23,035 bases of DNA from a virus: IMG/VR virus record IMGVR_UViG_3300042474_001468, positions 1-23,035 of that record; one strand, 5' to 3'. The translations under genes and the position numbers were made by a program. Below the pieces are notes generated by a model. It ran no database searches. It was not told the DNA's origin and worked only from the letters and a program-made list of their open reading frames with translations. This document shows, piece after piece, positions 1,427 to 18,685 of this stretch. The stretch's first letter is position 1. Every line of letters starts with the position of its first letter.

Positions 1427-1445
1427 GTTTGTTTTGTTTTTTGTT

Positions 1446-1480
1446 AAAAAATAAAGGGTGGAGATATTACTTTCCACCCC
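1446..1480 (-). terminator. Rho-independent terminator after the histone-like gene
   Basis: On the minus strand a 7-bp GC-rich stem (GGGTGGA pairing with TCCACCC, 10-nt loop) is followed at once by TTTATTTTTT. It starts a few bases after the stop codon of the 60-residue gene and about 20 bases before the receptor ATG, so it separates the Fe-S/histone region from the receptor gene. Confidence 0.8.
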
Positions 1481-1487
1481 GTTGGGT

Positions 1488-1670
1488 TTAATTTGATGTT
1501 TTAGTTTCTTCTACTGAGGCCTGACGGTAGTCCGTAACCAATTTCTTTAAGTCACCGATATGCGTTCTTGCATTCTTTTGAGATACTTTTGTTGTCTTGT
1601 TGTGCTCTTCTTCAAATTTTACGAACAATGATTTCATTGTTTCAAAAATTTCTTGCTTCTTACTAGCCAT
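1488..1670 (-). CDS. Small histone-H1-like (Hc1-type) protein
   Basis: A 60-residue charged, helical protein without cysteines. The pattern NKTTKVSQKNARTHIGDLKK followed by a YRQASVEE ending resembles small H1-like proteins of Bacteroidota, in which a lysine/arginine-rich helix is followed by an FRKVSVEE-type end. Those proteins are thought to bind DNA or nucleoid. A phage copy could help pack or protect phage DNA or alter the host nucleoid; that role is inference. It follows a strong promoter-like element and is closed by an intrinsic terminator, so it can be a monocistronic, possibly highly expressed transcript. The family call is from remembered sequence pattern over a short length, so it is moderate. 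Confidence 0.6.
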   Translation of the reverse strand: MASKKQEIFETMKSLFVKFEEEHNKTTKVSQKNARTHIGDLKKLVTDYRQASVEETKTSN

Positions 1671-1692
1671 AATTCTGTTTTTTGTTTGTTAA

Positions 1693-1725
1693 CTAAATAT
1701 AAGAAAGATTTTTGATATTACCAAA
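1693..1725 (-). promoter_or_regulatory. Bacteroidota-type promoter upstream of the histone-like gene
   Basis: Minus strand: TTTG, 20-nt spacer, TATATTTAG. This fits the Bacteroidota -33/-7 pattern (TTTG and TAnnTTTG). The spacer begins GTAATATCAA, a feature shared with the elements at 3020-3054 and 19600-19633. It lies directly after the stop of the preceding gene and 22 bases before the ATG. Confidence 0.65.
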
Positions 1726-1926
1726 TTATCTTCCTCTTTTTTGACGAATTGCCAATTCTTTAAGGTAGTGTGCCTTCCAATGATATTCAACCGAAACGGG
1801 CCCATTCGGGAATTTCTTCAAGTCATACTTCCAAATTGATTTTGACTCATCATCTTCAAATATGTATTCAAATTTTTGTGGTTTTTCCACTTTACTAAGG
1901 TTTTCTTTAGAACTCTTTATACTCAT
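1726..1926 (-). CDS. Hypothetical protein, 66 aa
   Basis: A short, highly charged protein that I do not recognise. The N-terminal 20 residues are lysine/serine-rich and probably disordered; residues 18-57 alternate aromatic and charged residues (FEYIFEDDESKSIWKYDLKK, VEYHWKAHYLKEL), as in a small alpha/beta domain; the end is basic (RQKRGR). It starts with ATG 27 bases after the IscA stop and shares its direction, so it may be read from the Fe-S operon. The opening frame matches gene spacing around it and no better gene is visible on either strand. Function unknown. Confidence 0.65.
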   Translation of the reverse strand: MSIKSSKENLSKVEKPQKFEYIFEDDESKSIWKYDLKKFPNGPVSVEYHWKAHYLKELAIRQKRGR

Positions 1927-1953
1927 AACCTAATTGTTAATAATTTGTTAACA

Positions 1954-2277
1954 CTAAAGTGCAAAACTCTCACCACATCCACAGGTTCGGGATGCATTGG
2001 GGTTTATAAATTGGAAACCCTTACCATTAAGTCCGTCTGAAAAATCTAATTCAGTACCGAATAGGTATAGTAACGATTTATTGTCTATTAGTATTTTTAC
2101 TCCCCTATTTTCTGCAAGAGTATCTGCCGGTTGTTGTTCAGTATCAAATGAAAGGTCATATGACAATCCACTGCACCCACCACCTTTAACCGCTACTCTA
2201 ACGAATGGAGTTTTGAATCCACTTTCTTCAATAAGTGAATTTAGTTTTTTTGCTGCACCTTCTGATACTGTTACCAT
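1954..2277 (-). CDS. iscA: A-type iron-sulfur carrier protein (IscA/ErpA family)
   Basis: Accepts Fe-S clusters from a scaffold and passes them to target enzymes in the cytoplasm. At 107 residues it has the normal family length, and the three cluster-binding cysteines are in place: Cys35 in GGGCSGLSY and Cys99/Cys101 in the terminal RTCGCGESF. The ATG overlaps the ferredoxin stop by one base (TAATG), so the two are translationally coupled. With IscU and ferredoxin it forms a three-gene Fe-S module; no cysteine desulfurase, HscA/HscB or IscR is in the window, so sulfur would have to come from the host or from genes elsewhere. Intact and probably functional. SufA or ErpA would look much the same, so the exact subtype is uncertain. 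Confidence 0.93.
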   Translation of the reverse strand: MVTVSEGAAKKLNSLIEESGFKTPFVRVAVKGGGCSGLSYDLSFDTEQQPADTLAENRGVKILIDNKSLLYLFGTELDFSDGLNGKGFQFINPNASRTCGCGESFAL

Positions 2278-2585
2278 TATGCGTATTTTAGTCCGAAAAA
2301 TTCGTAGTTCTTATGAACCGATACTTCATCACCCGCTTTTATTGCAATGTCCTCATCTTCATAAATTGCAGAAACGGGACATTCTGGAACACATGCTCCA
2401 CAATTGATACAACTATCTGGATTGATATACATTTGTCCACCTGGAAATGCTGCTCTACCATCTCTTTCAATTTCACCACCTGAACCTTCCATATCGATAG
2501 GTCCGTGAATACAATCTACCGGACATACACTTGCACATGCAGTATCCATACAATCAACACAACTCTTTCCAATAATATAAGCCAT
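2277..2585 (-). CDS. fdxA: Ferredoxin, 7Fe/8Fe (FdxA-like) dicluster type
   Basis: A 102-residue soluble electron carrier. Cysteines at 9, 12, 17, 21 and 25 give C-X2-C-X4-C-X3-CPVDC, the FdxA-type first site that holds a [3Fe-4S] or [4Fe-4S] cluster; Cys59, 62, 65 and 69 (CINCGACVPECP) give a classical [4Fe-4S] site. A glycine-rich insert (about 33-50) separates them. It lies between iscU and iscA, replacing the [2Fe-2S] Fdx of standard isc operons, so it may supply electrons for cluster assembly. It could equally serve a reductive enzyme such as the RfbH-like dehydrase encoded elsewhere in this window; that is inference. ATG start, A-rich leader, no Shine-Dalgarno. Confidence 0.9.
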   Translation of the reverse strand: MAYIIGKSCVDCMDTACASVCPVDCIHGPIDMEGSGGEIERDGRAAFPGGQMYINPDSCINCGACVPECPVSAIYEDEDIAIKAGDEVSVHKNYEFFGLKYA

Positions 2586-2595
2586 AATTTATTTT

Positions 2596-3006
2596 TTATA
2601 TATGTGATTCTTCAAAGACTAATTGTTCTAATCCTTGTTTTTGTCTATAATCGTTTATTGCAGATTTGATAGCATCTTCTGCTAATACTGAACAGTGGAT
2701 TTTAACTGGTGGTAGATTTAATTCCTCTACCAATTCCATATTGTCCATTTTAACTGCTTCTTCTAATGTCATACCTTTCAACCACTCCGTTGCTAATGAG
2801 GATGCTGCTATTGCACTTCCACATCCAAAGGTTTTAAATTTTGCGTCAGTTATAATATTATCGTTAACTTCTATTTGTAATCTCATTACATCACCACATT
2901 CCGGTGCTCCTACTAGACCTGTGCCTACATTAGATTTTGATTTGTCCAAAGTTCCTACATTTTTTGGGTTTTGGTAATGGTCAATTACTTTTTCACTATA
3001 TGCCAT
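2596..3006 (-). CDS. iscU: Iron-sulfur cluster scaffold IscU
   Basis: Scaffold on which [2Fe-2S]/[4Fe-4S] clusters are built from sulfur given by a cysteine desulfurase. It has full length (136 residues) and all hallmarks: Cys37 with Asp39 in GAPECGDVM, Cys62 in KTFGCGSAIA, Cys105 in VKIHCSVLAED, and the LPPVK motif (98-102) recognised by the HscA chaperone. There is no C-terminal NifU thioredoxin-like extension, so this is IscU rather than NifU. First gene of the Fe-S module, with a promoter-like element ending 14 bases before its ATG. No degradation is visible. Phage Fe-S genes occur in some aquatic phages, but a scaffold, ferredoxin and carrier together are unusual. Confidence 0.95.
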   Translation of the reverse strand: MAYSEKVIDHYQNPKNVGTLDKSKSNVGTGLVGAPECGDVMRLQIEVNDNIITDAKFKTFGCGSAIAASSLATEWLKGMTLEEAVKMDNMELVEELNLPPVKIHCSVLAEDAIKSAINDYRQKQGLEQLVFEESHI

Positions 3007-6131: not shown

Positions 6132-6159
6132 AATAAAATATATATTATATTATTTTATT
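6132..6159 (-). repeat. AT-only inverted repeat at the end of the glycosyltransferase cluster
   Basis: A perfect 9-bp stem (AATAAAATA and TATTTTATT) with a 10-nt loop spans the stop codon of the last glycosyltransferase gene. On the minus strand a run of six T follows about 14 bases downstream. It could be a weak terminator, but the stem has no G or C, so chance in AT-rich DNA is quite possible. Confidence 0.3.
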
Positions 6160-7047
6160 CAATTCTTCTTCAAACATAGAGTAAGATTGTTTTTTAAATT
6201 CTTCTTTTCTATCAATTCTTTTTATTAAAGTATCATAGTGTTTTCTATCTCTGTAAATATAATTCTCACAAACAATATAATTTTTCAATTTAAATTGGTA
6301 TATTTGTTCTCCTGATTGATTTAGTTTTTCTATTGACCACATTAAAAATGTATCATCTGGTCCATATGCACCCATTGATTCCGGTAAGGGTATTCTATCC
6401 AATAGTGGTTTTGATAATAAAGTAAACCAACCTGCACCGAATTTTGTTTTAGGTTGACCCGGAACATTGTTCAATACAGTTTCCAATTCAACATCACCAA
6501 CTTCTCCACTATCTGCAAATGGATTGTTTGTTTTACAATAGTCCAATGGTTTGTCTAAATAATTTTTATTAACTAAACAATCCCACGTAGTATCCCAATA
6601 TTTAACTATTTCGGGTGTAATAAAATATTTGTCAACATCAGTATCAGTTTCTTTTAATCTATCTATACTTGCTTCCATATAATAAAGAATTTTATCATCG
6701 AAACAAATATCTGTATCTAACCAAATAAAGTGTGTTGCATCAATAGACTCCATATGTGCATATCTTTTACATTGAAATGCTCCCATAATTTCTGGACGGA
6801 TTTGGTATGTAGATTTACCGGCCCAATTAGTCAATGGTTTTAAAGAATTAAATCTATCGATAAAAAATTGTTTATCTACTTTTGAATTTTCCCAATCAAA
6901 TAAATAATCATCAACTGAAAGTGAAATGTAAAATTCATAATTCTTTCCATCTACGAATTTAGATGCTTTGTTCAAATCTACCAATACTCTTTCCAAATCA
7001 TCCAACTCATGTGGCATTACGAATGATGTAATAACTATTTTTTTCAT
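6145..7047 (-). CDS. GT-A-type glycosyltransferase
   Basis: A 300-residue cytoplasmic protein. The opening (KKIVITSFVMPHELDDLERV) and the strand FIWLDTDICFDD with DTD at 111-113 fit a GT-A nucleotide-sugar-binding fold, the DxD binding the metal-sugar-nucleotide. A later segment, FGAGWFTLLSKPLLDRI and YGPDDTFLMW (about 227-236), matches the acceptor side and catalytic acid region of GT2-like enzymes. Sugar donor and acceptor cannot be read from sequence. Last gene of the large glycan cluster; its ATG overlaps the preceding stop (ATGA), showing tight coupling. Confidence 0.8.
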   Translation of the reverse strand: MKKIVITSFVMPHELDDLERVLVDLNKASKFVDGKNYEFYISLSVDDYLFDWENSKVDKQFFIDRFNSLKPLTNWAGKSTYQIRPEIMGAFQCKRYAHMESIDATHFIWLDTDICFDDKILYYMEASIDRLKETDTDVDKYFITPEIVKYWDTTWDCLVNKNYLDKPLDYCKTNNPFADSGEVGDVELETVLNNVPGQPKTKFGAGWFTLLSKPLLDRIPLPESMGAYGPDDTFLMWSIEKLNQSGEQIYQFKLKNYIVCENYIYRDRKHYDTLIKRIDRKEEFKKQSYSMFEEELNKII

Positions 7048-7826
7048 TTATATTTGTTTTCTATTAAATTATTCAATTGTTCTATTCTATCATACTGATG
7101 AACCAATACATATGGTGTTTCATCTTTTGTATTTATAACCAATCCCTCCTTTATAGTTAGTTGTTGTTTTTCAAATCTTTTATTGGATTTCAAAGTATCC
7201 ACTTGCATTGCAAAATCGGAATTTATTTCAATCTTATCTTTTAATAAAATATTATTAATGATTAGATTTAATGCACTTTGGTCGGTAAAATGTCTCGTAT
7301 CACCGGCCTGTGATACCAACCAATTCAACATCAATAAATCTTTAACCGATTTATGTTTACCTGCGATTACACCAACATTTGCTATTGTATTTGTTTTTAT
7401 TGATTCCCAAAAAATAGGGCCGAAACCTTCATGAATATTTTTGTGGGCCCATGGTTCATCTTCATTTTTGATACATTCGGATGCAACTATGATTTCGGTT
7501 TTAAGATTTATATTCAACCAATCTGATGGATTTGTCTGCCAAAAAATATCTCTTACATCCGTTGTAATAATATGATTCCATTGTCTATCGGTTGTATCTA
7601 AAAAATACCACATATCAATCAATCGTTTCATATGTGGATGACCTATCAGTTCTGCACCCAAGCACTCCCAACCTTTTAATGATAGATACTCAATTGTTTT
7701 ATTTGGTAGATTATAACATATCATTATTTTATCACCAGCAAATCCACAATCGTTTAAGGATTCTACATATATTTTAATCTTTTCTGGCATATAGTTTGCT
7801 ATTGCCGATATAACTAAGTCTTTCAT
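7044..7826 (-). CDS. Putative glycosyltransferase (GT-A fold, DVRD motif)
   Basis: A 260-residue protein without signal peptide. HIITTDVRDIFWQTNP (85-100) contains the D-x-x-D that in GT34/GT77-like enzymes replaces the DxD; later ANVGVIAGKHKSV and TDQSALNLIINN match the GT-A acceptor loop and the D-Q-S helix of those families. I infer transfer of one sugar onto a glycan or protein. Overlaps the next gene by 4 bp and follows the FkbM methyltransferase gene after one base, placing it in the same operon. Family placement is by motif only. Confidence 0.7.
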   Translation of the reverse strand: MKDLVISAIANYMPEKIKIYVESLNDCGFAGDKIMICYNLPNKTIEYLSLKGWECLGAELIGHPHMKRLIDMWYFLDTTDRQWNHIITTDVRDIFWQTNPSDWLNINLKTEIIVASECIKNEDEPWAHKNIHEGFGPIFWESIKTNTIANVGVIAGKHKSVKDLLMLNWLVSQAGDTRHFTDQSALNLIINNILLKDKIEINSDFAMQVDTLKSNKRFEKQQLTIKEGLVINTKDETPYVLVHQYDRIEQLNNLIENKYK

Positions 7827-7827
7827 A

Positions 7828-8454
7828 TTATGGAATTAATAGTACATCTCTACCACAATCAATGGAACTATAATCAAACATAATTTCCATATCTCGTATT
7901 AATTGCTGTTCCGTATCTTTGTACCAATTGGTTTCAAATAATATATATGGTCTTTGATTTGTGTTACACATCCAATCAAGCATTCCACGTATCACATTAA
8001 CATCATGTCCTTCGGTATCTATTTTTACAAAATTAACCTTTTCAATTTTATTTTCGTTCATCCATTCTGAAAATGTTACACAATTTATAGTATACTTTTC
8101 GTGTGAGTGTATTTCCATTCCCTCTTTATAAATCTTATTGTAACCAAAATTTTCATTAGATGCTAATATTGTAACTTCGGAAGTTTCGTTACCCAATGCT
8201 TTATCAACTACTTTTATATTTGAATATTTTTCAAATTTATTTTTACATTCACTTACTAAATATGGTACAGGTTCAAATAATATGATATTTTCTAAAAAAT
8301 CATATCCCAAATCATCTAATATCATTTTACTAAATAATCCCGTATTTGCACCCACATCTACGAATGTATCACCCTTATTTAGATATGGTTTTATCAAATC
8401 AACATTGGTTTGTATTTCGGGTCTTAGCCAATTTTCCCATTCATTTAAATCCAT
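7828..8454 (-). CDS. FkbM-family SAM-dependent methyltransferase
   Basis: About 208 residues. The SAM-binding motif FVDVGANTGLFS lies at 31-42, the acidic end of strand 2 at ILFEPVP (about 58-64), and the FkbM hallmark VNFVKIDTEGHDVNVIRGM at about 142-160. Such enzymes O-methylate sugars in glycans, so capping or decorating the glycan made by the neighbouring transferases is likely. I place the start at ATG 8454, 12 bases downstream of the preceding stop; a TTG start at 8490 would add 12 lysine-rich residues and overlap the upstream gene by 25 bp, which seems less likely. Confidence 0.88.
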   Translation of the reverse strand: MDLNEWENWLRPEIQTNVDLIKPYLNKGDTFVDVGANTGLFSKMILDDLGYDFLENIILFEPVPYLVSECKNKFEKYSNIKVVDKALGNETSEVTILASNENFGYNKIYKEGMEIHSHEKYTINCVTFSEWMNENKIEKVNFVKIDTEGHDVNVIRGMLDWMCNTNQRPYILFETNWYKDTEQQLIRDMEIMFDYSSIDCGRDVLLIP

Positions 8455-8465
8455 ATTATATAATT

Positions 8466-9218
8466 TTATTTTTTTCCGTATTTTTGCCAATCGTTATGCA
8501 TAAATAATCCTTCACCATGTGCTACTTTAAAATTTTGATTTGCCCACCAAATGGCAACTTCACCTTCCGATGTGATGTGTCCATTATTTATAAATGGTGT
8601 AACACATTCTATATAAAATTTAGTATTAAACAAACACGGATTGTTTGTCCAATTACCATATCTACTCGATGCTATATAATAATCACCATCTTTTTGTATA
8701 AATTCAGGAAATCTTTCTTCTGGATTTTCAATCCAATGAATTGTATCCAATAAGTGTGGGTATTTCATTTTATAATACGCATCAACATATTCCAATTCTT
8801 TACCATTATACATATTATAACTAAACAATGGTGCACCCGGATGTTTTCTATGCCTATATCTAACACATTTAAAATCTTTACTTAAAAAATCCAAACCATC
8901 TTTTAATCTATTGTATGTTGTTTCTTTATCTTCAATTAAATTCCAATCATGTTCTAATATTAGAAAATTTTCAGTTTCGGCATTTTGTGCTAATTTCAAA
9001 ATACCCATTCCAATTCCAATATTTTTTTGTAAACCAATAAAATTTAAACCAAAGTGAGTTGCTATTTGAATATCTTGTGTAGTTACTTCCTGAAATAAAA
9101 TAGTAACATCATTTACCATATCAAATAAACCATTATTATGATATGTTGTTAATGTATCCACTAATACCTGTCCACTATGCCAAGATAATATACCTATACT
9201 AATTGGTAATTTTTCCAT
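8466..9218 (-). CDS. Putative glycosyltransferase, GT2-like
   Basis: A 250-residue protein. The first strand and helix (ISIGILSWHSGQVLVDTL) and the second strand (DVTILFQE) are those of GT2 enzymes. At about 86-93, FLILEHDW takes the place of the usual DxD strand, with Glu-His-Asp instead. C-terminal GEVAIWWANQNFKVAHGEGLFMHND gives a conserved-looking acidic/His-rich end. The missing DxD suggests either a metal-independent or modified active site, or a non-catalytic relative. Between two methyltransferase genes in the same operon. Confidence 0.65.
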   Translation of the reverse strand: MEKLPISIGILSWHSGQVLVDTLTTYHNNGLFDMVNDVTILFQEVTTQDIQIATHFGLNFIGLQKNIGIGMGILKLAQNAETENFLILEHDWNLIEDKETTYNRLKDGLDFLSKDFKCVRYRHRKHPGAPLFSYNMYNGKELEYVDAYYKMKYPHLLDTIHWIENPEERFPEFIQKDGDYYIASSRYGNWTNNPCLFNTKFYIECVTPFINNGHITSEGEVAIWWANQNFKVAHGEGLFMHNDWQKYGKK

Positions 9219-9221
9219 ATA

Positions 9222-9899
9222 TTATTTTTTAATATAACTTCCCCATATAAAGAAGTTTGCATTTTTGTTATTAAATTCTTCCAAACCATTTTCAGCAATA
9301 GCATCTTTAATTACATCATATTCAGTTTCAAATCCATAAGGCCATTGCCAATATTCAGTTGCAATTTTCCAACTTTGTTCATCTTGTTTATAATCATGTA
9401 AAATAACAATGTCATCCTTTTTAAGATATTTAGAAAACTCATTAAATTCTTTTGTTTTATTTCCACCATCACATATTAATAATGTTCTGCCAGGTTGTTT
9501 TATTAAATCTACAATTTCATTATAATATTTTTCTTCAAAACAATCTCCAATTCTAAAATCAATATCACTTCTTTGTTGTTTTGCCATATTAATTGATGGT
9601 TCAATATCATATGATGTAAAGTTTGCACCTTCTTTTTTAGATTCAAAAATATAACTAGATAATCCACCATTATAAGAGCCAATTTCAACTATATTATCAA
9701 AGTTACTTAAAAAATCTCTATTAAAAAATAAATAAATTCCCAATACTTGTGATATTTGAATACCATTGTAATAATTTAATCTATAAAATGGATGTGATGC
9801 ATGCCAATTTGTAATTTCTGAAAATTGTATTTTATTACTTATATGATTGTTCATTAAGTAATTTAACATTTGTGAATAAAAGTCAAAGTTTTCTTTCAT
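9222..9899 (-). CDS. Class I SAM-dependent methyltransferase (CmcI-like)
   Basis: A 225-residue protein. NIVEIGSYNGGLSSYI (69-84) is motif I of a Rossmann-like methyltransferase; FTSYDIEPS (94-102) is the acidic strand-2 end; IDFRIGDCFE (113-122) and TLLICDGGNKTKEF (139-152) are motifs II/III. The DGG-x-K arrangement resembles cephalosporin-hydroxylase-like (CmcI) methyltransferases, often found in polysaccharide clusters. It would methylate a sugar or small molecule; substrate unknown. The N-terminal 65 residues are helical and likely a lid. Confidence 0.75.
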   Translation of the reverse strand: MKENFDFYSQMLNYLMNNHISNKIQFSEITNWHASHPFYRLNYYNGIQISQVLGIYLFFNRDFLSNFDNIVEIGSYNGGLSSYIFESKKEGANFTSYDIEPSINMAKQQRSDIDFRIGDCFEEKYYNEIVDLIKQPGRTLLICDGGNKTKEFNEFSKYLKKDDIVILHDYKQDEQSWKIATEYWQWPYGFETEYDVIKDAIAENGLEEFNNKNANFFIWGSYIKK

Positions 9900-9900
9900 A

Positions 9901-10527
9901 TTATTTATTTTTATTTTTTATTTTTTCCCATTCAATTCTATCATTCTCTTTTATTGCATTAAATTCTACAAGGTCGGAAGTTGTTGACATTTCGGTTACT
10001 ATTGTAAAGTTATGCAATACCCATTTTGGATATGGATTAATTTCAGTCATAAAATCATCATTATACCAAACTTTTAATTCCTCCGGTATAGGAATCCAAT
10101 ATTTTTTTTGTGTTAATATAAATGAACCCCAACCCCACGGACGAATTCCTTCTAGTTTTGATAAACCAGGTATTTCATCGTAAGGTTTATTATAGTTATC
10201 GGATGCCTGGCCAACTATACCTTCTATTTGATTTACTAAAAATAAACCCAATATGTTTGGATTGAAATTGATATCATCGTTACAAATTGCAATATGTTCA
10301 TTTTTTGCAATCTCTACACCCAAATTCCAAGCTGGACTAACATATATGTTTTCTTTAACCTGTATTAATTTTACTTTATCCAATGCTTCATAGTATTCAA
10401 AATATTTACTGGCATTATCTATTAAAATAATTTCATCTACAAATTCGGAACTAATTAAATCCTTCAATAATTGATGAATTCTATTTGATTTCCAAAGAGT
10501 TGGTATTATTACTGAAAATTTATTCAT
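9901..10527 (-). CDS. Glycosyltransferase family 2
   Basis: A 208-residue GT2 core. KFSVIIPTLWKSNRIHQLLKD (3-23) and DEIILIDNAS (31-40) form the nucleotide-binding half; the metal motif is ICNDDINF with NDD at 83-85; GWGSFILTQKKYW and WYNDDFMTEI (about 164-173) match the acceptor loop and catalytic acid (ED/DD) region. No membrane helix, so it works in the cytoplasm on a soluble or peripheral acceptor. It overlaps the preceding gene by 8 bp. Confidence 0.85.
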   Translation of the reverse strand: MNKFSVIIPTLWKSNRIHQLLKDLISSEFVDEIILIDNASKYFEYYEALDKVKLIQVKENIYVSPAWNLGVEIAKNEHIAICNDDINFNPNILGLFLVNQIEGIVGQASDNYNKPYDEIPGLSKLEGIRPWGWGSFILTQKKYWIPIPEELKVWYNDDFMTEINPYPKWVLHNFTIVTEMSTTSDLVEFNAIKENDRIEWEKIKNKNK

Positions 10528-11131
10528 TTATATCATAATTTAAATCAAAAATATATGGTTCCAATCTTTCAATTACCCAAGGGGCTTGTTCATTTGTTTC
10601 TAATATATTCAAAACTTTTTTATAAAAGTTAAGTGGTCTTTTTTGTATATGTTGTTTTGTTGCACAAAAATGACCAGTTGGAGTAAATGTTATCGTATCA
10701 GGACAATCCGATTTAAATAATTGATTCCAAATAGTTGGAATATCTAAACCCTCATGATGTGGTGCACCATTTTTATCACAGGTTAATTTTCCACCATATT
10801 GAGTACAATAAAACCAACATTCTTCAAAATCTTGTACCGCGTTTTGCTTTAAAGTTTGAATATTACCATTCATAATATCAATATAATTGTGAACATGGTC
10901 TTGAAAATAATCCTGTGAGGTGAACGTATAGTTTGCCAAGTTATTGTAATTATTAACAATATGATAAAAGAATGTATGAACATCTCTACCAACATTATTT
11001 TCTAAATAGATTTCATCAGCTAAATCATAATTAGTACCTTTTCTATAAACTGTTACTTTTATGTCTTTATTTAAATTATTTATCCAATAGTGATAATCTC
11101 TATCATATGCCGATATAACTACTTCTTTCAT
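10520..11131 (-). CDS. DUF3431-like protein, probable glycosyltransferase relative
   Basis: A 203-residue protein. The string LENNVGRDVHTFFYHIVNNY (about 43-62), then NYTFTSQDYFQDH and the closing APWVIERLEPYIF, resemble the DUF3431 pattern (N-x-GRE/D-x-H-T, F-x-Q-x-x-x-D-H, W-x-x-E-R). Proteins of this type occur in glycan gene clusters and are suspected of transferase function, but no reaction has been established that I know of. Its ATG overlaps the stop of the reductase gene (ATGA) and its end overlaps the GT2 gene by 8 bp. Confidence 0.65.
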   Translation of the reverse strand: MKEVVISAYDRDYHYWINNLNKDIKVTVYRKGTNYDLADEIYLENNVGRDVHTFFYHIVNNYNNLANYTFTSQDYFQDHVHNYIDIMNGNIQTLKQNAVQDFEECWFYCTQYGGKLTCDKNGAPHHEGLDIPTIWNQLFKSDCPDTITFTPTGHFCATKQHIQKRPLNFYKKVLNILETNEQAPWVIERLEPYIFDLNYDINE

Positions 11132-11802
11132 TGTATTGATTTTTTTAATTTTGAAACATCCATAGATGTATTGTTTGGTACATACTCCGGCTTTCCAGCT
11201 GGCTTTACATTTTTATTAGTTTGTTTTGCCAAATCAAACATAGATTTGAATTCGGTTCCTACATTAAATATACCAAAATTATTTGACATAACCAAATTAA
11301 TTATTAAAGATGATATAACATCTACATAATCAAAATTTCCCCATTGGTCATCCCATGCCCTTTCATATGGAAATGGATTTGGTTTATGAGTACCTTTACA
11401 AATTAAATAATTATTTGATTTTAATTCAATATACGCGTCTGCCAAAAGTTTGGTATATGAGTACCAATTATTACCATGAACCGGTATATCATTTTCCGAA
11501 ACTTCTGAATTAGAATTTGTATAAACATAATCGGTTGATATGTGGACTAATTTAATATTTTGATTATTACAATAATCGACCAAATCAGCTACCGCTTTAT
11601 AATTTACATTCCAATTATTTTCTTTATCGTTTGAATATGTGTTAGTAAATGCTATACAATTAATAATAACATCATACCCATGAAAATTAAAATCATTTTT
11701 AGTTATATCGAACCCATCTTTTTTACGAGATATATAATCCCAATTAGTTTGCTTAACTATTTCGGAACCAAGTAACCCATCTCCCAGAACCAATACCTTC
11801 AT
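11128..11802 (-). CDS. RmlD-like NAD(P)-dependent sugar reductase (extended SDR)
   Basis: Predicted to reduce the 4-keto group of a nucleotide-linked deoxysugar. The Rossmann motif is VLGDGLLGSEIV (GDGLLG at 7-12), followed by VIINCIAFT, VHISTDYVY (87-94) and the catalytic Y-x-x-x-K in NWYSYTKLL (Tyr114, Lys118). HISTDYV is characteristic of RmlD/dTDP-4-dehydrorhamnose reductase relatives. At 224 residues it is shorter than RmlD (about 290), lacking part of the substrate domain. Its ATG overlaps the stop of the RfbH-like gene by one base (TAATG), which strongly suggests that it acts on the 3-deoxy-4-keto sugar made by that enzyme. Confidence 0.8.
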   Translation of the reverse strand: MKVLVLGDGLLGSEIVKQTNWDYISRKKDGFDITKNDFNFHGYDVIINCIAFTNTYSNDKENNWNVNYKAVADLVDYCNNQNIKLVHISTDYVYTNSNSEVSENDIPVHGNNWYSYTKLLADAYIELKSNNYLICKGTHKPNPFPYERAWDDQWGNFDYVDVISSLIINLVMSNNFGIFNVGTEFKSMFDLAKQTNKNVKPAGKPEYVPNNTSMDVSKLKKSIQ

Positions 11803-13088
11803 TATTTGAACTTTTTAATAACTTCTTCAATATAATCAAATACCAAATCGGTATAATGTGGTGCTGCCCCAATAAAGAACACTTTATCTAATACTTTATT
11901 TGCTTCTGGGTAGTTTTTAAAATCATCTAAAAATGAATATCCTGGATGTAATAAAATATTTCCTGCAAAGTAGTTTCTTGTTTGGATTTTGTTTTTTTCC
12001 AAAAATTCAACTAATCTGTGTTTTAATCCTGGTTCATCACAAATGAATGGAGTTCCAAACCAACATGGGTCAGCTTTATCCAATTTAGATGGTGCTCTCA
12101 ATCCAGGTATGTTATCAACAAATATTTGAGTAAGTCTTTCTTTACTTCTCTTTCTATTTACTTCAATCTCATCCAATTTTTCTAATTGAACAATTCCAAT
12201 TGCTCCTTGTAAATCCAATGGTTTTAAGTTGTAACCCATATGGCTGAAAACATATTTATGGTCAATTACACCATCGTAATTTTCTAACCATTTGTCAAAT
12301 CTATTTCCACAAGTTCCACATGATAATAAGTTTGCAGAACCAATACAATAACAATCTCTACCCCACCATGAATAACTTACAAACAATGCCTTTAATTCAT
12401 CATCATTCGTGCAAATCATTCCACCTTCTCCTGTCGAAATATGGTGTGCAGGATAGAATGAATTTGAAAAGGCAACATAGTAGTCAGTTAATGGTTTATC
12501 GTTCCATTTTGTACCCAAAGAATCACAATTATCACCAATTATCTTCAAATCATACTTATCAGCAATCTCTTGCAATCTATCCATATCTGGAGGATTACCC
12601 AAAACAGGTGATACGAATATACCCTTTGTTTTTTCAGTAATTTTTGATTCTATTTGGTTTAAGTCAAAGTTTAATGTATCCCATTCAATATCTAAAAATA
12701 TTGGTTTCAATCTATGTTGATATAATACTGAAATTGTAGTTGCAAATCCAACTGGAGATACGATAATTTCATCATCATCTGCCCAATTAAATCTTTTCTT
12801 TAATGCAGCAATCAATACCAAGTTAGCAGAACTACCTGAGTTTACCATATGAGAATGTTTAACATTAACTCTCGTACTGAATAGGTTTTCAAATTTATAA
12901 ACTCTTTCTCCTGCAGTAATCCACTTTCCATTTAAGAATGTGTCAATTGCTGTTTCTATTTCTCTGTTATCCCAATAAGGACCAGAATAGTAAATTGGTG
13001 TTTTACCCGCTTCAAAACTTTTAGCGTTGTAAATGTATGGAGCTACGTGATTTCCTACCAATCCACGTATATTACTTAAATCTATCAT
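11802..13088 (-). CDS. rfbH: NDP-4-keto-6-deoxyglucose 3-dehydrase, RfbH/E1 type, [2Fe-2S] and PMP dependent
   Basis: A 428-residue member of the DegT/DnrJ aminotransferase fold. In the usual PLP-lysine position it has histidine: SNSFYPAHHISTGEGGM, with His215 where aminotransferases have Lys. This marks the dehydrases of the RfbH/AscC(E1)/ColD type. It also has the iron-sulfur cysteines of E1: Cys188-X57-Cys246-X-Cys248, then Cys257 and Cys260 in SCGTCGNRF; the 57-residue spacing equals that of E1, while the last loop is 4 residues longer. E1 removes the C3 hydroxyl of CDP-4-keto-6-deoxyglucose using electrons passed through its [2Fe-2S] cluster, leading to 3,6-dideoxyhexoses (abequose, tyvelose, ascarylose). 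HKYVFSHMGYNLKPLDLQGA (277-296) is also typical. No E3 reductase is in the window. Start overlaps the upstream gene by 17 bp. Confidence 0.9.
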   Translation of the reverse strand: MIDLSNIRGLVGNHVAPYIYNAKSFEAGKTPIYYSGPYWDNREIETAIDTFLNGKWITAGERVYKFENLFSTRVNVKHSHMVNSGSSANLVLIAALKKRFNWADDDEIIVSPVGFATTISVLYQHRLKPIFLDIEWDTLNFDLNQIESKITEKTKGIFVSPVLGNPPDMDRLQEIADKYDLKIIGDNCDSLGTKWNDKPLTDYYVAFSNSFYPAHHISTGEGGMICTNDDELKALFVSYSWWGRDCYCIGSANLLSCGTCGNRFDKWLENYDGVIDHKYVFSHMGYNLKPLDLQGAIGIVQLEKLDEIEVNRKRSKERLTQIFVDNIPGLRAPSKLDKADPCWFGTPFICDEPGLKHRLVEFLEKNKIQTRNYFAGNILLHPGYSFLDDFKNYPEANKVLDKVFFIGAAPHYTDLVFDYIEEVIKKFK

Positions 13089-13947
13089 ATGCTGTTATTA
13101 ATCTATCTACTACTTGTACTTGTGTATAATTATGTAATACTTTCATCATTCCATTGTGTGCAATTCGTTCTCTCTCCTCTTCGTTTTCGTTATAGTAATT
13201 CATCTTCTCAATACAATCAAACATATCATTGTATAAAATAATATCTTCACCATCTATAAATAATTCTTCCAAACCTCTACTGATATCCAACTTATCCGTC
13301 AATACCATTTTACCACAAGCCATACCTTCAAATATTCTACGGGTTATTTCACCCCATCTACTATTTTGAATCACTATCAATCCTTTATTCAAAAATTCAG
13401 TATGTTGTTTTGCATCCATACCATTTTGATTTCCAATTGCACCTTCTGCCCAATGTGTAAGATAATCTAAAAATTCAGAACCACCTCTACCTCTACTTGT
13501 TACACCCACATATTCAGGTTCTAAATTCATTGGAAACTGTACCATTGTATCTGCCCAATGTGGAACCCAATCACAATCAATACCTCTACTTCTATATTCG
13601 TATGCCGATACTCTATCCGGAGTAATTGTATAATGAAAACGATTTGCTTTTGGATAATTTCTTTCAAAGTTTTGTGGGTCATCTCCACTTTCTTGTATCC
13701 AACATGCACTTGGTTTTAAATCTTTATCTAAATATGGTGAATCAATTCTACCCCAATCCATAAACAACACAATATCCGTTGGAATGTCTTGTTGAATCCA
13801 CAATTGTAATGCAGAATCATCGGTTGCCGTAATCGATACTATTTCAGTTTCCCAACCTCTCTCCTTAAACTCATTGAGTAAAGACAAAGGTGTTGACCAG
13901 GTTTCATTTGGAGTATGATTATATATGAATGTTATTTTATTTCGCAT
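13072..13947 (-). CDS. GT-B-type glycosyltransferase (GT4/CgeB-like)
   Basis: A 291-residue protein. The N-terminal half (KITFIYNHTP, SLLNEFKERGWETEIVSI) is a Rossmann-like acceptor domain; the C-terminal half contains the donor site NSRWGEITRRIFEGMACGKMVLTDKL, with the E-x-x-x-R-x-F-E-x-x-A-x-G pattern of CgeB/glycos_transf_1_2 enzymes. It closes with a helical wrap-around typical of GT-B folds (RIAHNGMMKVLHNYTQ). It is shorter than most GT4 enzymes (350-400 residues). Overlaps its neighbours by 11 and 17 bp, so it belongs to the operon. Confidence 0.8.
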   Translation of the reverse strand: MRNKITFIYNHTPNETWSTPLSLLNEFKERGWETEIVSITATDDSALQLWIQQDIPTDIVLFMDWGRIDSPYLDKDLKPSACWIQESGDDPQNFERNYPKANRFHYTITPDRVSAYEYRSRGIDCDWVPHWADTMVQFPMNLEPEYVGVTSRGRGGSEFLDYLTHWAEGAIGNQNGMDAKQHTEFLNKGLIVIQNSRWGEITRRIFEGMACGKMVLTDKLDISRGLEELFIDGEDIILYNDMFDCIEKMNYYNENEEERERIAHNGMMKVLHNYTQVQVVDRLITAYDRFK

Positions 13948-14566
13948 ATTCTTCTCTTTTAAATAAAATTGAATAATGGTTTTCTCCCTCTCTATTATAC
14001 GATGAGTATGGTTTCCAATCTATTCCGTTTTGAATATAATCAACTTCGGCATTAAATCTATTTTTCCTTACTCCGTCCATTTTTATTGTTTTTAAATATG
14101 ATGATTTTGCCCACCAAAAATTACCAGAATACAATTTCCATTTTCCGGCAGTTCCTAATAAAACACCATATGTATTATAATCGGTTTTTTCAAAAATTTT
14201 AAATATATTTTTTACTTTTTCAATATTAAAATAATTCATAAGATGTCTCCAACTTACTACATTTTCTAAGTTTTGTTTTGATGCACCCTTTGTATGAATA
14301 TACAAAATATAATCGGAATCACCAAACTTTTCTTTATCTTTTTCTATTAAATCTAATGTTACAAATTCATTACCTCTAGACCTCACATCTCTAATTTTTT
14401 CAAATTTATTAATAATATAATCTATTGAAGTATTATCCTCTGCAATAGAAATCCCCACATTTAATATGTAAGGAAAATCAAAATGTTTTTTTATTAGATT
14501 TAATTGTTCATCTATTATAGATTCAACACCATCAATTGCATATATGTGATAGTATATGTGAACCAT
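13937..14566 (-). CDS. Glycan-cluster protein with YIHTKGAS motif
   Basis: A 209-residue protein. The central segment DYILYIHTKGASKQN (about 91-105), then SWRHLMNYF and YSGNFWWAKSSYLKTI (about 146-161), is a pattern I have seen in uncharacterised proteins of polysaccharide loci in Bacteroidota and in some phages; the opening MVHIYYHIYAIDGVESII recalls a GT-A first strand. HTKG replaces the DxD, so it may be a divergent transferase. Both ends overlap neighbouring genes (TAATG on the downstream side of the preceding gene). Function not established. Confidence 0.6.
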   Translation of the reverse strand: MVHIYYHIYAIDGVESIIDEQLNLIKKHFDFPYILNVGISIAEDNTSIDYIINKFEKIRDVRSRGNEFVTLDLIEKDKEKFGDSDYILYIHTKGASKQNLENVVSWRHLMNYFNIEKVKNIFKIFEKTDYNTYGVLLGTAGKWKLYSGNFWWAKSSYLKTIKMDGVRKNRFNAEVDYIQNGIDWKPYSSYNREGENHYSILFKREEYAK

Positions 14567-15189
14567 TATAAAGTATCGTAATAATTATTCTGTCTTTCTT
14601 GTCTTTCGATTGTCTTTGGATGTTTGATACAATATATCTCTTCAGCTGGAAAATTTGTATAAGATTCAAATCCTACTATTCTTTCATGTACTTTACCACT
14701 CCAACCGATTTTGTCAGAGTTTTTATAGATACGAGTCTGAACATCGGGAAAGTTTACCCATCCTTTCTCATTTACATTCCATCCCCATTTTTGAATATGA
14801 GATTGAGTTAAACCTTCAACAGTATTAATTCTAGGAACAACAATCATATCCTTATCGGTATTTACATCCAATAATGCTTCCATATTTACAATCAAATCAG
14901 GCATAAGATATTCATCAGCATCCAATTGAAATATCCACTCACCTTTACATTGTGAGTTTAATAAATTTTTCCATTGTGCAAAATCATTATCAAATTCCGA
15001 TTCGATAAGTGTAATGTGGTCTGCATTAGCTTGTAGTTCTAAATACTCTACTAATTCTATTGGAGCTTTCGGTGTATCTAATAGGACTACTATTTCCGAA
15101 TTTTCTTCTTTATAGTTTAATAATTGTCCTACCAATCTAATCGTTTCTTCGACTTCATTACAAGCCGTTATTGCGTAACTTAATTTCAT
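14566..15189 (-). CDS. Glycosyltransferase family 2
   Basis: About 207 residues. LSYAITACNEVEETIRLVGQ (3-22) and EIVVLLDTP (32-40) are the GT2 nucleotide half; WIFQLDADEYLMPDLI has DAD at 90-92 as metal site; GKVHERIVGF is near the acceptor end. It ends soon after the core, so it is a minimal GT2 enzyme. I choose ATG 15189, whose A overlaps the stop of the preceding gene (TAATG), the junction used repeatedly here; an ATG at 15225 would add 12 residues and a 37-bp overlap. Confidence 0.87.
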   Translation of the reverse strand: MKLSYAITACNEVEETIRLVGQLLNYKEENSEIVVLLDTPKAPIELVEYLELQANADHITLIESEFDNDFAQWKNLLNSQCKGEWIFQLDADEYLMPDLIVNMEALLDVNTDKDMIVVPRINTVEGLTQSHIQKWGWNVNEKGWVNFPDVQTRIYKNSDKIGWSGKVHERIVGFESYTNFPAEEIYCIKHPKTIERQERQNNYYDTL

Positions 15190-15557
15190 TAAAATACTTT
15201 TTCGTTTGATGTTGTATAACTCCATGCAGAACCACTCGGATATCCATATGCAGTTGATGTTGTTCCAAATCCAAATGATGGATTAGCAATTGTAATTGAA
15301 CCAACACCTGGTGTTGTTGTTATTGTTGTTCCAGATGAACCACTACCACAAGTTATCTTAAATGGATTGTATGGGTCTGTTGGTGGTGGTGTAATAAATG
15401 TATTTGGTGTTCCCCATCCACCTATACCGATTGGAGTTCCATCGTTAACTTTTGATAACTTTTCTTTTAATAAATCCCACTGCTTTGGAGTAATATTAAA
15501 TTCATGTACTCCTTCTGTAAATCCTTTTAACCAAAGGACAAATTCTTTTGATGTCAT
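15189..15557 (-). CDS. Small phage-type protein with Gly/Thr/Ser-rich C-terminus
   Basis: A 122-residue protein in two parts. Residues 1-40 (SKEFVLWLKGFTEGVHEFNI, PKQWDLLKEKLSKV) are a helical domain of a kind I recall from hypothetical proteins of tailed phages. Residues 41-122 are low-complexity Gly/Ser/Thr/Pro with scattered aromatic residues (TTITTTPGVG, FGFGTTSTAYGYPSG), which looks like an extended or beta-structured surface segment. No enzyme motif. Placed among glycosyltransferase genes; a Thr/Ser-rich tail could be a glycosylation acceptor or a virion decoration, but that is a guess. Two bases after the upstream stop. Confidence 0.65.
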   Translation of the reverse strand: MTSKEFVLWLKGFTEGVHEFNITPKQWDLLKEKLSKVNDGTPIGIGGWGTPNTFITPPPTDPYNPFKITCGSGSSGTTITTTPGVGSITIANPSFGFGTTSTAYGYPSGSAWSYTTSNEKVF

Positions 15558-15559
15558 AA

Positions 15560-16033
15560 CTATTTATTTTTTAATTGAGATTTTTTATCTATACCTATTA
15601 CATTTTTATTTTTTGGTGTAAGTTGATTTACATCCATATCCAATTCTATAATTTGGCCAAATCCACTAATCTTATAAGTTCTATATGAATCATTTGAAAC
15701 AACTGGAACTTTTGATACAACAGAAGAGTAAAACTTTTTTGCACCTCCTTTCATTTCCAATAATTCGGTATCTTCATTTATAAATTTACCAAAAAATCTT
15801 TTTATAATTTGTGGATTTACATTTGAAACTTTTACAGCATGAACTATATCTTTTGATGCTGATGCAAATAATGTGTAGATTATTGGTGCATTTGTTTCTG
15901 TATATTTGCCTTTCGTTCCATCAATATATTCGTATTCCTTAATTAAATAAAATCTACCCCTTGTTATTTTTTTAGGATTTATATAATTTCTTTCGTCTAT
16001 GAATTTACGATATATTGGATTATAATTTGGCAT
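15560..16033 (-). CDS. Conserved phage-type hypothetical protein, 157 aa
   Basis: A basic, soluble protein of alternating beta-strands and helices: GRFYLIKEYEYIDG (about 26-39), APIIYTLFASASKDIVHAVKV (about 49-69), IIKRFFGKFINEDTEL, then SDYRTYKISGF-like strands and IELDMDVNQLTPKNKNVIG, ending in Lys-rich SQLKNK. The sequence pattern seems familiar from hypothetical proteins of T4-like phages of aquatic bacteria, but I cannot name a function. Start overlaps the preceding transferase stop by one base (TAATG). Its position splits the glycosyltransferase cluster, so it is probably co-expressed with it. Confidence 0.7.
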   Translation of the reverse strand: MPNYNPIYRKFIDERNYINPKKITRGRFYLIKEYEYIDGTKGKYTETNAPIIYTLFASASKDIVHAVKVSNVNPQIIKRFFGKFINEDTELLEMKGGAKKFYSSVVSKVPVVSNDSYRTYKISGFGQIIELDMDVNQLTPKNKNVIGIDKKSQLKNK

Positions 16034-17301
16034 TATTTATTTAACGTTTTCAATTTTGGTAATTGTAATTGTTGAAATTTTGGTTGTATCTTAGTATAAA
16101 TACCATACTGATTTAAAATACTATCAAATCCTTCAGTCATTTTTGTTAGACTAAAATTTGCTAAATTATATTTTTTTAATTTAGATGATTCGGTTTTGTA
16201 TTTATCATAATTCTTATAAACATCTTTGATTGAAAGTAATGCTTTTGAAATATTCACATTAAACCATTGTGATTCTTTTAATAAGAATTGGTCAGCTGCA
16301 GATTCATGTACCGGTTTCAATTCACCTTCTAATAATACTGCACCTTGTTTTAAAAAATCAATATGGCCACTCCAATTAGAAACAATTACAGGCTTTCCTG
16401 TCAAACTAAATTCTAATAGTGGTCTACCAAATCCTTCACCTTTTGTAAAATTTAACATTGCTTTTACTTTTTTATGTTCGTATAACCCATTCATTTCCGA
16501 TGGAGTTAAATCACCATGTAAAAGATAAATTGGAACTGACTTATAATCTTTACCCAATACCTCTTTGATTTTTTTAATTGTAGTTTCTCTATCCATCACA
16601 CTAAATCCCGCGGAACTGGTTTTAAGAACTAATGCTGGTTTTACTTTTTCATTTTTGAAAGCCATTGCAAATGTTTTAATCATCATTCCAACATTTTTTC
16701 TATCTTCACCTAAATCACCTCTTAACCAATGTCCTACAAATAAGAATGCAAAATCTTCTTTGATTGAATCCAATTCCGTAATATTTACAACATCTTCCGT
16801 TCCAAAATCCATCTCATCAAATCCTTCAAAAAGAATTTCAACAGGCTTTTGGATTTTATGTTGTGCAATCAATTGACCACTATTTTTGTCTTGTTCATTG
16901 TAAATTGTATCTACCAAACTTTTCTTTGAATGTTCAGATGGTACTATAATTAAGTCCATTCTATTACAACCATGTAGCCAATCTAATGGTGAATGTGTTG
17001 TTTCGATAGCTGCAGTAATACCGATATTATAATGTCCTACTGGTTGGAATTCGTTTGGTACAGTAACCTGAATATAAATGTCAGGTTTTTGTTCAATACC
17101 CGGAATGATATTATCTACTATCCACTTATGAAATGGATTGTCATAATTAAGTGAATCCATTGGAGTATTACCCCAACGTGTACTAATTACTTTAATTTCA
17201 AATTTATCTAATTTATAAAGAGAGTGTAATAAATCTCTCGCGTGGTCACCATACCCACTTCTTGTTGCTACTGGTGCTTGAAATACTAATGTTGGTTTCA
17301 T
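16033..17301 (-). CDS. GT-B glycosyltransferase, GT4-like
   Basis: A 422-residue protein. The N-terminal domain opens with LVFQAPVATRSGYGDHARDL, the SG-x-G loop that contacts the acceptor or donor phosphate in GT4 enzymes; ITAAIETTHSPLDWL and LIIVPSEHSKKSLV follow. The C-terminal domain has FLFVGHWLRGDLGEDRKN and the donor motif FTKGEGFGRPLLEFSLTGKPVIVS (E-x-x-x-x-x-x-x-E at 289-297). Transfers a sugar from an NDP-sugar; donor unknown. One base separates it from the preceding GT-B gene, and the two may act in sequence. Confidence 0.88.
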   Translation of the reverse strand: MKPTLVFQAPVATRSGYGDHARDLLHSLYKLDKFEIKVISTRWGNTPMDSLNYDNPFHKWIVDNIIPGIEQKPDIYIQVTVPNEFQPVGHYNIGITAAIETTHSPLDWLHGCNRMDLIIVPSEHSKKSLVDTIYNEQDKNSGQLIAQHKIQKPVEILFEGFDEMDFGTEDVVNITELDSIKEDFAFLFVGHWLRGDLGEDRKNVGMMIKTFAMAFKNEKVKPALVLKTSSAGFSVMDRETTIKKIKEVLGKDYKSVPIYLLHGDLTPSEMNGLYEHKKVKAMLNFTKGEGFGRPLLEFSLTGKPVIVSNWSGHIDFLKQGAVLLEGELKPVHESAADQFLLKESQWFNVNISKALLSIKDVYKNYDKYKTESSKLKKYNLANFSLTKMTEGFDSILNQYGIYTKIQPKFQQLQLPKLKTLNK

Positions 17302-17302
17302 A

Positions 17303-18685
17303 TTATAACTCTATTAACTTAAATTTTTGTTTTGGTTTCCAATTTTCGAATGCACCTTCCATACCATCTACTAATGATTGACACATTGCTTCTCTACTTA
17401 ATTTACCTTCTCCTAAGAAATGTTTTCTACCTTTCAATCCGGCAGCTTCTCTATCTTCTTTTGGCATTTTATACCAATCCATAATTAAAGGAGTGATATC
17501 TTCAAAGTCAACTCTATCATCAAAAATATATGGAGTAGGTACTGAACCCGTTGTTGAACGAACTGGCCAAATTGGTTTAACCCAATCTCCCCACACTACA
17601 CCTGCTTTTCTGTGCCTATCGTGTAAAGAACCAATTTCAACATAATCTTCGGCAATTAGTAATTTACCCGTTCCTCTTTCTCTAAATCCACATTGGTCTT
17701 GTAATCCACCTGTAACCGTTACTATGATTGGAGTTCCTGCCATTACTGATTCTGCGGTTGCTAAACCAAATCCTTCATTAGATGCCACATTAATTGTCAC
17801 ATCTCCCATATTGTAAAGATAGTTCAATTGTTCTTCGGAATATCTATTTGGTGCAAATACGACATTTGTTTCAGGTGAACAACATTCTGCAATTGTTCTT
17901 GGTAAATCTGTTCCATGTTCTTCGACAGGTTGAGTATGCATTAATAAACATACTTTACTTCTTTCTTCAGGTCGTAATGCTTCAACAAATTTATCGAATG
18001 CTAAAATAACATCAATAGGTTGTTTTCTACGAATATTTCTATTATTCCAATATAAAACAAAATCGTATTCCTTATCACCAAATATTTCTTTTTTAAATTC
18101 TTGTGGAACTTCTACTGGTTTGTATAAGTCGGAATTGATACCATGTGGTACATAACTTACTTGCCAGTCTGCGGGTGGTGTCCAATGTTTTTCTTTATCC
18201 CAACTCCAAACTCTTTTAGTAATACCATAAGTTTGTTTTGAAATACATCCAATCCAATCACAACTTTCGTAGTAATCTCTATTGTATTTTGGGTCTGGTA
18301 AATCATCCCAGATATGATAGAAAAATAATGGTACCGATTGACGAACTTCGTGCTCCATCTCATATAACCAAATCCAATATCTCGGGTCTGTAAAGTGTAA
18401 GATAGCGTCAGGTTTTTCAATCATCAATAATCGTCTAATTATATCGGCATTACCATAACCATCGGACGGGTAAATTTTTACATTTGCATCTTTTACACCT
18501 GTTTGTTCTCTAACACTTTCATTTAGGTCTAAAACTTTACCAGCTTCTGGATGTTTGATTGCAGCTCCTAATTGAACCCAATCATACTTATCAACAGTTC
18601 CCAACACTAATTGTTTGGAAACATTGGCAATACCACTTGCCATTCTTAAATCATCCGATAATAACAGAATCTTCTTTTTTGTCAT
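17303..18685 (-). CDS. GT-B glycosyltransferase, GT4 family (phage type, 460 aa)
   Basis: The N-terminal domain (1-200) has LLLSDDLRMASGIANVSKQL, with an SG-I-A loop typical of this group, and FFYHIWDDLPDPKYN. The C-terminal domain begins near DFVLYWNNRNIRRKQPID, where a phosphate-binding N-R-x-x-R-K loop is visible, and contains the donor motif ASNEGFGLATAESVMAGTPI (301-320) with Glu304 and Glu312. Long GT4-like proteins of this type are known from large aquatic phages. It is the first gene of the glycan cluster, 24 bases after the nuclease gene; a TATATTTA box lies in this gap but without a clear -33 element. Confidence 0.88.
   Translation of the reverse strand: MTKKKILLLSDDLRMASGIANVSKQLVLGTVDKYDWVQLGAAIKHPEAGKVLDLNESVREQTGVKDANVKIYPSDGYGNADIIRRLLMIEKPDAILHFTDPRYWIWLYEMEHEVRQSVPLFFYHIWDDLPDPKYNRDYYESCDWIGCISKQTYGITKRVWSWDKEKHWTPPADWQVSYVPHGINSDLYKPVEVPQEFKKEIFGDKEYDFVLYWNNRNIRRKQPIDVILAFDKFVEALRPEERSKVCLLMHTQPVEEHGTDLPRTIAECCSPETNVVFAPNRYSEEQLNYLYNMGDVTINVASNEGFGLATAESVMAGTPIIVTVTGGLQDQCGFRERGTGKLLIAEDYVEIGSLHDRHRKAGVVWGDWVKPIWPVRSTTGSVPTPYIFDDRVDFEDITPLIMDWYKMPKEDREAAGLKGRKHFLGEGKLSREAMCQSLVDGMEGAFENWKPKQKFKLIEL

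Follow-up and report, generated by a model that had tools for sequence, protein, structure and literature searches.

A large freshwater phage, represented by an IMG/VR virus record, carries a gene for a putative sugar 3-dehydrase, which raises the question of what chemistry this enzyme performs, on which nucleotide sugar, and with which partner genes. We analyzed the whole stretch of 23,035 nucleotides (hereafter the window), in which the initial annotation had placed an RfbH/E1-type 3-dehydrase for 3,6-dideoxy sugars; the reading frame lies where it was placed, on the minus strand and with 428 codons followed by a stop codon. The frame and the positions that bear on its assignment are:

11802..13088, minus strand: predicted E1/RfbH-type [2Fe-2S] nucleotide-sugar 3-dehydrase, 428 aa, ATG to TAA
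12525..12527, minus strand: codon of Cys188, first [2Fe-2S] ligand position (E1 and viral alignments)
12444..12446, minus strand: codon of His215, replacing the aminotransferase PLP lysine (aligned to 3bcx H220 and 3bb8 K220)
12345..12353, minus strand: codons of Cys246-Tyr-Cys248, second and third ligand positions (E1 and viral alignments)
12312..12344, minus strand: 11-residue loop preceding the fourth ligand, the E1 loop plus four residues, with the non-conserved Cys257
12309..12311, minus strand: codon of Cys260, fourth ligand position (aligned with the final E1 cysteine)

Among solved structures, the top phmmer match of the dehydrase was 3bcx (E=2.6e-74), which is E1, the CDP-6-deoxy-L-threo-D-glycero-4-hexulose-3-dehydrase, and a Foldseek search with an AlphaFold2 model gave E1 as the top hit (E=3.1e-32), followed by ColD. 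The pLDDT of this model is below 50 at residues 213-220 and 242-288, comprising the His and Cys loops; since the cluster loop is poorly modeled, we used the model for the fold alone and left cysteine geometry aside. At the Pfam level the protein belongs to the DegT/DnrJ/EryC1 family, and its best NCBIfam model is RfbH, where a score of 348.9 bits falls below the equivalog cut-off of 423.

The residues singled out by the initial annotation (His215 and Cys188, Cys246, Cys248, Cys257, and Cys260) were all found at the positions claimed, and the spacing match to E1 is exact. His215 falls in the column of E1 His220, which is a lysine in the engineered H220K mutant 3bb8 (phmmer alignment; SFYPAHHISTGEGG in the dehydrase versus SFYPAHHITMGEGG in E1), hence the PLP-binding lysine that marks DegT aminotransferases is replaced by His215, and the presence of cysteines distinguishes the protein from ColD, which is marked by the His without cluster cysteines. 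The arrangement Cys188-X57-Cys246-X-Cys248 has identical spacing in E1 and, together with X11-Cys260, matches all four E1 cluster cysteines. In the cluster loop, the dehydrase reads CYCIGSANLLSCGTC and E1 reads CYCAPGCDNTC, and the X11 versus X7 spacing makes the proposed 4-residue insertion real relative to E1. No variation was seen at H215, C188, C246, C248, or C260 in an 18-member viral alignment, whereas Cys257 is replaced by Gln in four relatives (L052, L054, L055, and L067) and by Asn or Lys in a cyanophage group, with Cys260 retained even in these proteins. Because Cys260 is invariant and Cys257 variable, we assign Cys260 to the fourth ligand position and regard Cys257 as a lineage-specific residue, so that Cys188, Cys246, Cys248, and Cys260 are the predicted [2Fe-2S] ligands. 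Of 80 viral Fe-S members, 75 have C-X11-C as the last spacing and five have X12 or X13 there; C-X7-C is found in 73 of 77 cellular homologs among the cellular matches listed. Thus, the suggestion that the Cys257/Cys260 pair marks a subclass did not hold, but the longer C-X11-C spacing does mark the viral clade.

Relatives of the dehydrase are encoded by 84 IMG/VR stretches, of which the best 80 were kept from one scan, and at least 70 phage contigs bear intact close relatives; with more than 80 related viral loci, chance is excluded. Among annotated phages, the closest relatives are found at 64% identity in a metagenomic phage of 642 kb and at 57% identity in the cyanophages S-H68, S-B05, RB11-B, S-B43, and RN05-S. 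A tree was built with the loop columns omitted and with 20 dereplicated cellular RfbH proteins from among the matches listed, including E1, as well as ColD types. Here, 29 viral rows grouped into a single clade with an SH-aLRT of 99 and a stem of length 1.05; it lies outside the 20 cellular RfbH proteins, on the Fe-S side of the tree and separate from the ColD types. Of the phylogeny proposed as a check in the initial annotation, the part covering cellular RfbH and ColD sets the dehydrase in a viral clade apart from both; as the root lies on long ColD branches, this separation is firm and the depth of the "outside" position less firm. Four viral Fe-S proteins (L070, L071, L073, and L076) were nearer to the cellular group, and together with L069 they make up another viral lineage of Fe-S 3-dehydrases, closer to cellular RfbH and with a C-X12-C or C-X13-C loop. 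Proteins of L078, L079, ACG-2014f, and S-CAM7, with the His and no cluster cysteines, clustered with ColD. A search for a close cellular donor in 395 Bacteroidota genomes gave a best homolog of just 39% identity, and therefore no recent bacterial donor was found among the genomes sampled. Viral-type dehydrases at 54-57% identity are also encoded by L093, L094, and L095, three records classified as Nitrosomonadaceae, Prochlorococcus, and Bacteriovoracales genomes, respectively, which could be viral contigs that ended up in MAGs or SAGs.

Judged from its sequence, the protein is an E1/RfbH-type [2Fe-2S], PMP-dependent nucleotide-sugar 3-dehydrase, and more precisely a predicted variant of the E1-type 3-dehydrases rather than RfbH sensu stricto. 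The E1 homology, the viral clade, and the fold match agree on an Fe-S, PMP-type C3 deoxygenase class in a phage, as had been proposed. The label "RfbH" is borne out for this E1-like class but not for the CDP substrate it carries with it, given the missed cut-off, the position outside cellular RfbH, and the absence of CDP-glucose genes described below.

Two genes follow the dehydrase on the same strand:

11128..11802, minus strand: short RmlD-like SDR, 224 aa, probable 4-keto reductase (PF04321, 61.9 bits)
10520..11131, minus strand: DUF3431 protein, 203 aa, possible transferase (PF11913)

The TAATG coupling reported earlier is present at 11800-11804, where the dehydrase stop overlaps the RmlD-like start. 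A GxGxLG-type glycine-rich motif and YxxxK are kept in 19 RmlD-like relatives, and an RmlD-like gene is the next gene after the dehydrase in 27 viral loci, most commonly with overlaps of 1 or 4 bases. Within the viral clade, the reductase linked to the dehydrase is RmlD-like in 31 loci and another SDR in 30, with both in none; parsimony on the dehydrase tree gives six switches, of which well-supported branches alone force one. Since two unrelated reductases swap in one slot, we read both as the C4 reduction step, which the exchange suggests, and they perhaps differ in the stereochemistry of that reduction. DUF3431 occurs in more than 30 viral loci, and in 25 of them its gene lies directly upstream of that for the dehydrase. 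Fusions join it to the RmlD-like reductase in L047 (11284-12555), L048, and L075, and in L031 (10767-12809) and L032 its fusion partner is a GT2-like protein. These fusions tie an uncharacterized domain to sugar transfer. The AlphaFold2 model of DUF3431 (pLDDT 90) gave weak Foldseek matches to GT-A folds (best E 5e-3), and from adjacency and these matches our guess is that it may be a transferase. We read the dehydrase, the reductase, and DUF3431 as a mobile three-gene module that would build and attach a 3,6-dideoxyhexose.

The module lies among genes for glycan synthesis, and elsewhere the window holds a block of iron-sulfur and receptor genes:

13072..13947, minus strand: glycosyltransferase (PF13524), with a 17-base overlap with the dehydrase start
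6145..10527, minus strand: remaining variable glycan island, between conserved backbone genes in relatives
9901-10527, minus strand: GT2, in the glycan island
9222-9899, minus strand: methyltransferase, in the glycan island
7828-8490, minus strand: FkbM methyltransferase, in the glycan island
14566..18685, minus strand: conserved backbone side of the island (families 3, 4, and 5 in about 40 loci)
14566-15225, minus strand: GT2, on the conserved backbone side
16033-17301 and 17303-18685, minus strand: two GT1-like proteins, on the conserved backbone side
2596-3006: IscU
2277-2585: 4Fe-4S ferredoxin
1954-2277: IscA
2-1477: TonB-dependent-receptor-like protein with a CarboxypepD_reg domain

The 6145..10527 segment also holds three proteins without a family. 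Positions 6145-10527 and 13072-15225 together form a hypervariable glycan island, the content of which differs even among close relatives and which is bordered by backbone families 14, 6, 5, 4, and 3 on one side and 15, 19, 18, and 17 on the other. The dehydrase sits beside conserved phage genes, one of which encodes a clamp loader. The Isc/TonB block (2-3006) is itself phage-borne, being syntenic in L200 (78 kb), L201, L226 (209 kb), L230, and L237; it is odd to find a TonB-receptor-like gene as part of a phage backbone. A role of the phage IscU, ferredoxin, and IscA in loading the dehydrase cluster was considered and rejected as coincidence: IscU was found in 1 of 24 other dehydrase-bearing records and no dehydrase within the flanks of 80 IscU viral loci, and with such rare co-occurrence no functional link is seen.

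The name RfbH implies CDP-4-keto-6-deoxyglucose as the substrate. We searched for its supply genes with the profiles TIGR02623 (RfbF) and TIGR02622 (RfbG), and with TIGR01472 for the GDP-mannose 4,6-dehydratase GMD. Neither RfbF nor RfbG exceeded its cut-off in any of 23 long related viral contigs searched over the whole record, and neither was present in the 23 kb window. Of 10 control genomes with cellular RfbH, nine had an RfbF match over cut-off and five an RfbG match over cut-off; RfbG scored 203-240 bits in the remaining five, and the search was therefore sensitive enough for the viral records. In the flanks of the dehydrase genes, RfbF and RfbG were each found at 0 of 72 viral loci versus 49 and 51, respectively, of 77 cellular loci among the matches listed (Fisher p ~1e-19 for RfbF and ~1e-20 for RfbG, from loci that are not independent). 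Thus, the CDP-glucose genes that the initial annotation had proposed to look for elsewhere in the genome were over cut-off in no related viral record searched.

GMD, on the other hand, reached more than 345 bits in 15 of the 37 related viral records searched (~40%), with three of them over cut-off; in these records it often directly adjoins an Fcl-like gene and shares its island with a GT11 gene. In flanks, GMD was found at 13 of 72 viral versus 6 of 77 cellular RfbH loci among the matches listed, a difference that is not significant (p=0.08), and GMD may serve GDP-fucose alone. No 4,6-dehydratase of any kind was found in the 23 kb window, which is a fragment, and no strong GMD in L016 (162 kb) or L027 (169 kb), two long relatives with the same RmlD-like arrangement; we therefore assume that the host supplies the substrate in these phages. 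The TonB-receptor-like protein with its CarboxypepD_reg domain suggests a Bacteroidota host, and among 198 Bacteroidota genomes GMD was present in 124 and RfbG in 26. On balance, we give GDP about even odds of being the nucleotide of the dehydrase substrate, and consider CDP and dTDP each an unlikely but serious candidate.

Enzymes that combine the His with a [2Fe-2S] motif carry out C3 deoxygenation with electrons from a reductase, whereas the cluster-free ColD uses glutamate and hydrolysis instead (PMC8987622). The homology, the His, the four Cys positions, and the viral clade are direct observations, and because the dehydrase is an E1 homolog we infer a corresponding chemistry. PMP and an NDP-4-keto-6-deoxyhexose would form a Schiff base on the enzyme, His215 would take a proton from the cofactor with expulsion of the C3 hydroxyl, and the enzyme's own [2Fe-2S] cluster would pass electrons, turning a glucoseen-type intermediate into an NDP-4-keto-3,6-dideoxyhexose. 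A phage-encoded E3 was considered and rejected, as a search of the window and 23 related phage records for a Fer2-domain (E3-like) protein found none, the one such protein being a ferredoxin of cyanophage RB11-B; the electron donor is thus probably of host origin. SpnQ takes electrons from ferredoxin or flavodoxin systems and has no dedicated E3 (PMC8987622), and a host ferredoxin or flavodoxin would have to serve the phage enzyme likewise. The adjacent SDR, RmlD-like here and of the other type in other phages, would then reduce the 4-keto group. The substrate would come from the host or, in some relatives, from the phage's own GDP-mannose 4,6-dehydratase, and the island transferases, perhaps DUF3431 or GT11, would attach the sugar to an acceptor, most likely a glycan of the host surface or of the virion.

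The same gene might instead encode an ordinary RfbH that completes a host CDP-glucose pathway to abequose, paratose, tyvelose, or ascarylose. RfbH is indeed the best NCBIfam model at 348.9 bits, E1 is the closest characterized enzyme, and the 26 of 198 Bacteroidota genomes with RfbG could supply CDP-4-keto-6-deoxyglucose. However, the score is under the 423-bit equivalog cut-off, the viral clade lies outside cellular RfbH, and RfbF and RfbG were over cut-off in no related viral record searched, against strong matches in 10 of 10 cellular controls; we regard this explanation as unlikely. Membership of the DegT/DnrJ/EryC1 family would also accommodate a lysine-free PLP aminotransferase, or an SpnQ-like enzyme transaminating without its reductase to give a 4-amino sugar, as SpnQ is reported to do when the reductase is absent (PMC8987622). 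Against this very improbable reading, E1 and ColD showed no transamination under those conditions (PMC8987622), the relatives keep the His and four cluster cysteines that a transaminase does not need, and a reductase gene is coupled to the dehydrase.

We consider it scarcely credible that the dehydrase gene is without function in the phage, either as a relic or as host sequence brought in by misassembly. The IscU, ferredoxin, IscA, and TonB-receptor-like proteins of the window do look bacterial, but their block is syntenic in independent phage contigs of up to 209 kb, which also led us to reject the window as a chimera. Moreover, more than 70 viral contigs encode an intact dehydrase in which the catalytic residues do not vary, the gene adjoins conserved phage genes including the clamp loader, and it is also present in sequenced cyanophages. 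The reading we prefer, with a probability of about 0.72, is that of an E1-like 3-dehydrase, fed by the host or by a GMD, which with an SDR and transferases would make a 3,6-dideoxyhexose. A narrower version, which we put forward tentatively and hold to be less than probable, is that the viral clade is an enzyme type in its own right, an Fe-S, reductase-dependent 3-dehydrase acting on GDP-4-keto-6-deoxymannose, with exchangeable C4 reductases leading to varied 3,6-dideoxysugars, including colitose, on a glycan.

Compared with known systems, the dehydrase shares with E1/RfbH (DdhC, AscC; 3bcx) the fold, the catalytic His, the four-Cys motif with C-X57-C-X-C, an FEAGK N-terminal motif, and a sequence identity of ~33-36%, but differs in having C-X11-C instead of C-X7-C, a separate clade, and no RfbF, RfbG, or E3 gene alongside. 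With ColD, the GDP-4-keto-6-deoxymannose 3-dehydrase (2gms), it has in common C3 deoxygenation and the replacement of Lys by His, and in some related phages its gene is grouped with those for GMD, an Fcl-like protein, and GT11, like a colitose pathway; in contrast, ColD lacks the cluster cysteines, uses no reductase, and belongs to a separate clade. SpnQ, the dTDP-4-keto-2,6-dideoxyglucose 3-dehydrase, is by its published description also a [2Fe-2S] 3-dehydrase (PMC8987622), but its substrate comes from an antibiotic pathway. The genes rfbH, ascC, and ddhC are already named in viral auxiliary metabolic gene lists (PMC10653327, PMC11295528), which are annotation counts, and in the excerpted literature we found no description of the viral clade, the longer loop, the missing CDP-glucose genes, or the reductase exchange.

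Cyanophages S-H68 and S-CAM7 already carry this enzyme annotation. The S-CAM7 protein, named "CDP-4-keto-6-deoxy-D-glucose-3-dehydrase", has no cluster cysteines and is of the ColD type, and its annotation as a CDP-glucose enzyme looks wrong from the sequence. The ColD-type viral 3-dehydrases (L078-L081, L176 of ACG-2014f, and L177 of S-CAM7) are accompanied by GMD in 6 of 6 cases and by an Fcl-like gene in 5 of 6, and these loci are probable phage colitose cassettes.

If the substrate of the viral clade is GDP-linked, E1-type chemistry would be joined to the colitose route, a combination that to our knowledge is not known from characterized enzymes, and the name RfbH in viral gene catalogs would be misleading. 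In some bacterial O-antigens, 3,6-dideoxyhexoses are immunodominant sugars that define receptors; the change in receptor recognition or immunity proposed in the initial annotation is a conjecture. The existence of a large viral clade that has a 3-dehydrase of its own and two reductase options suggests that phages of aquatic bacteria make 3,6-dideoxyhexoses themselves.
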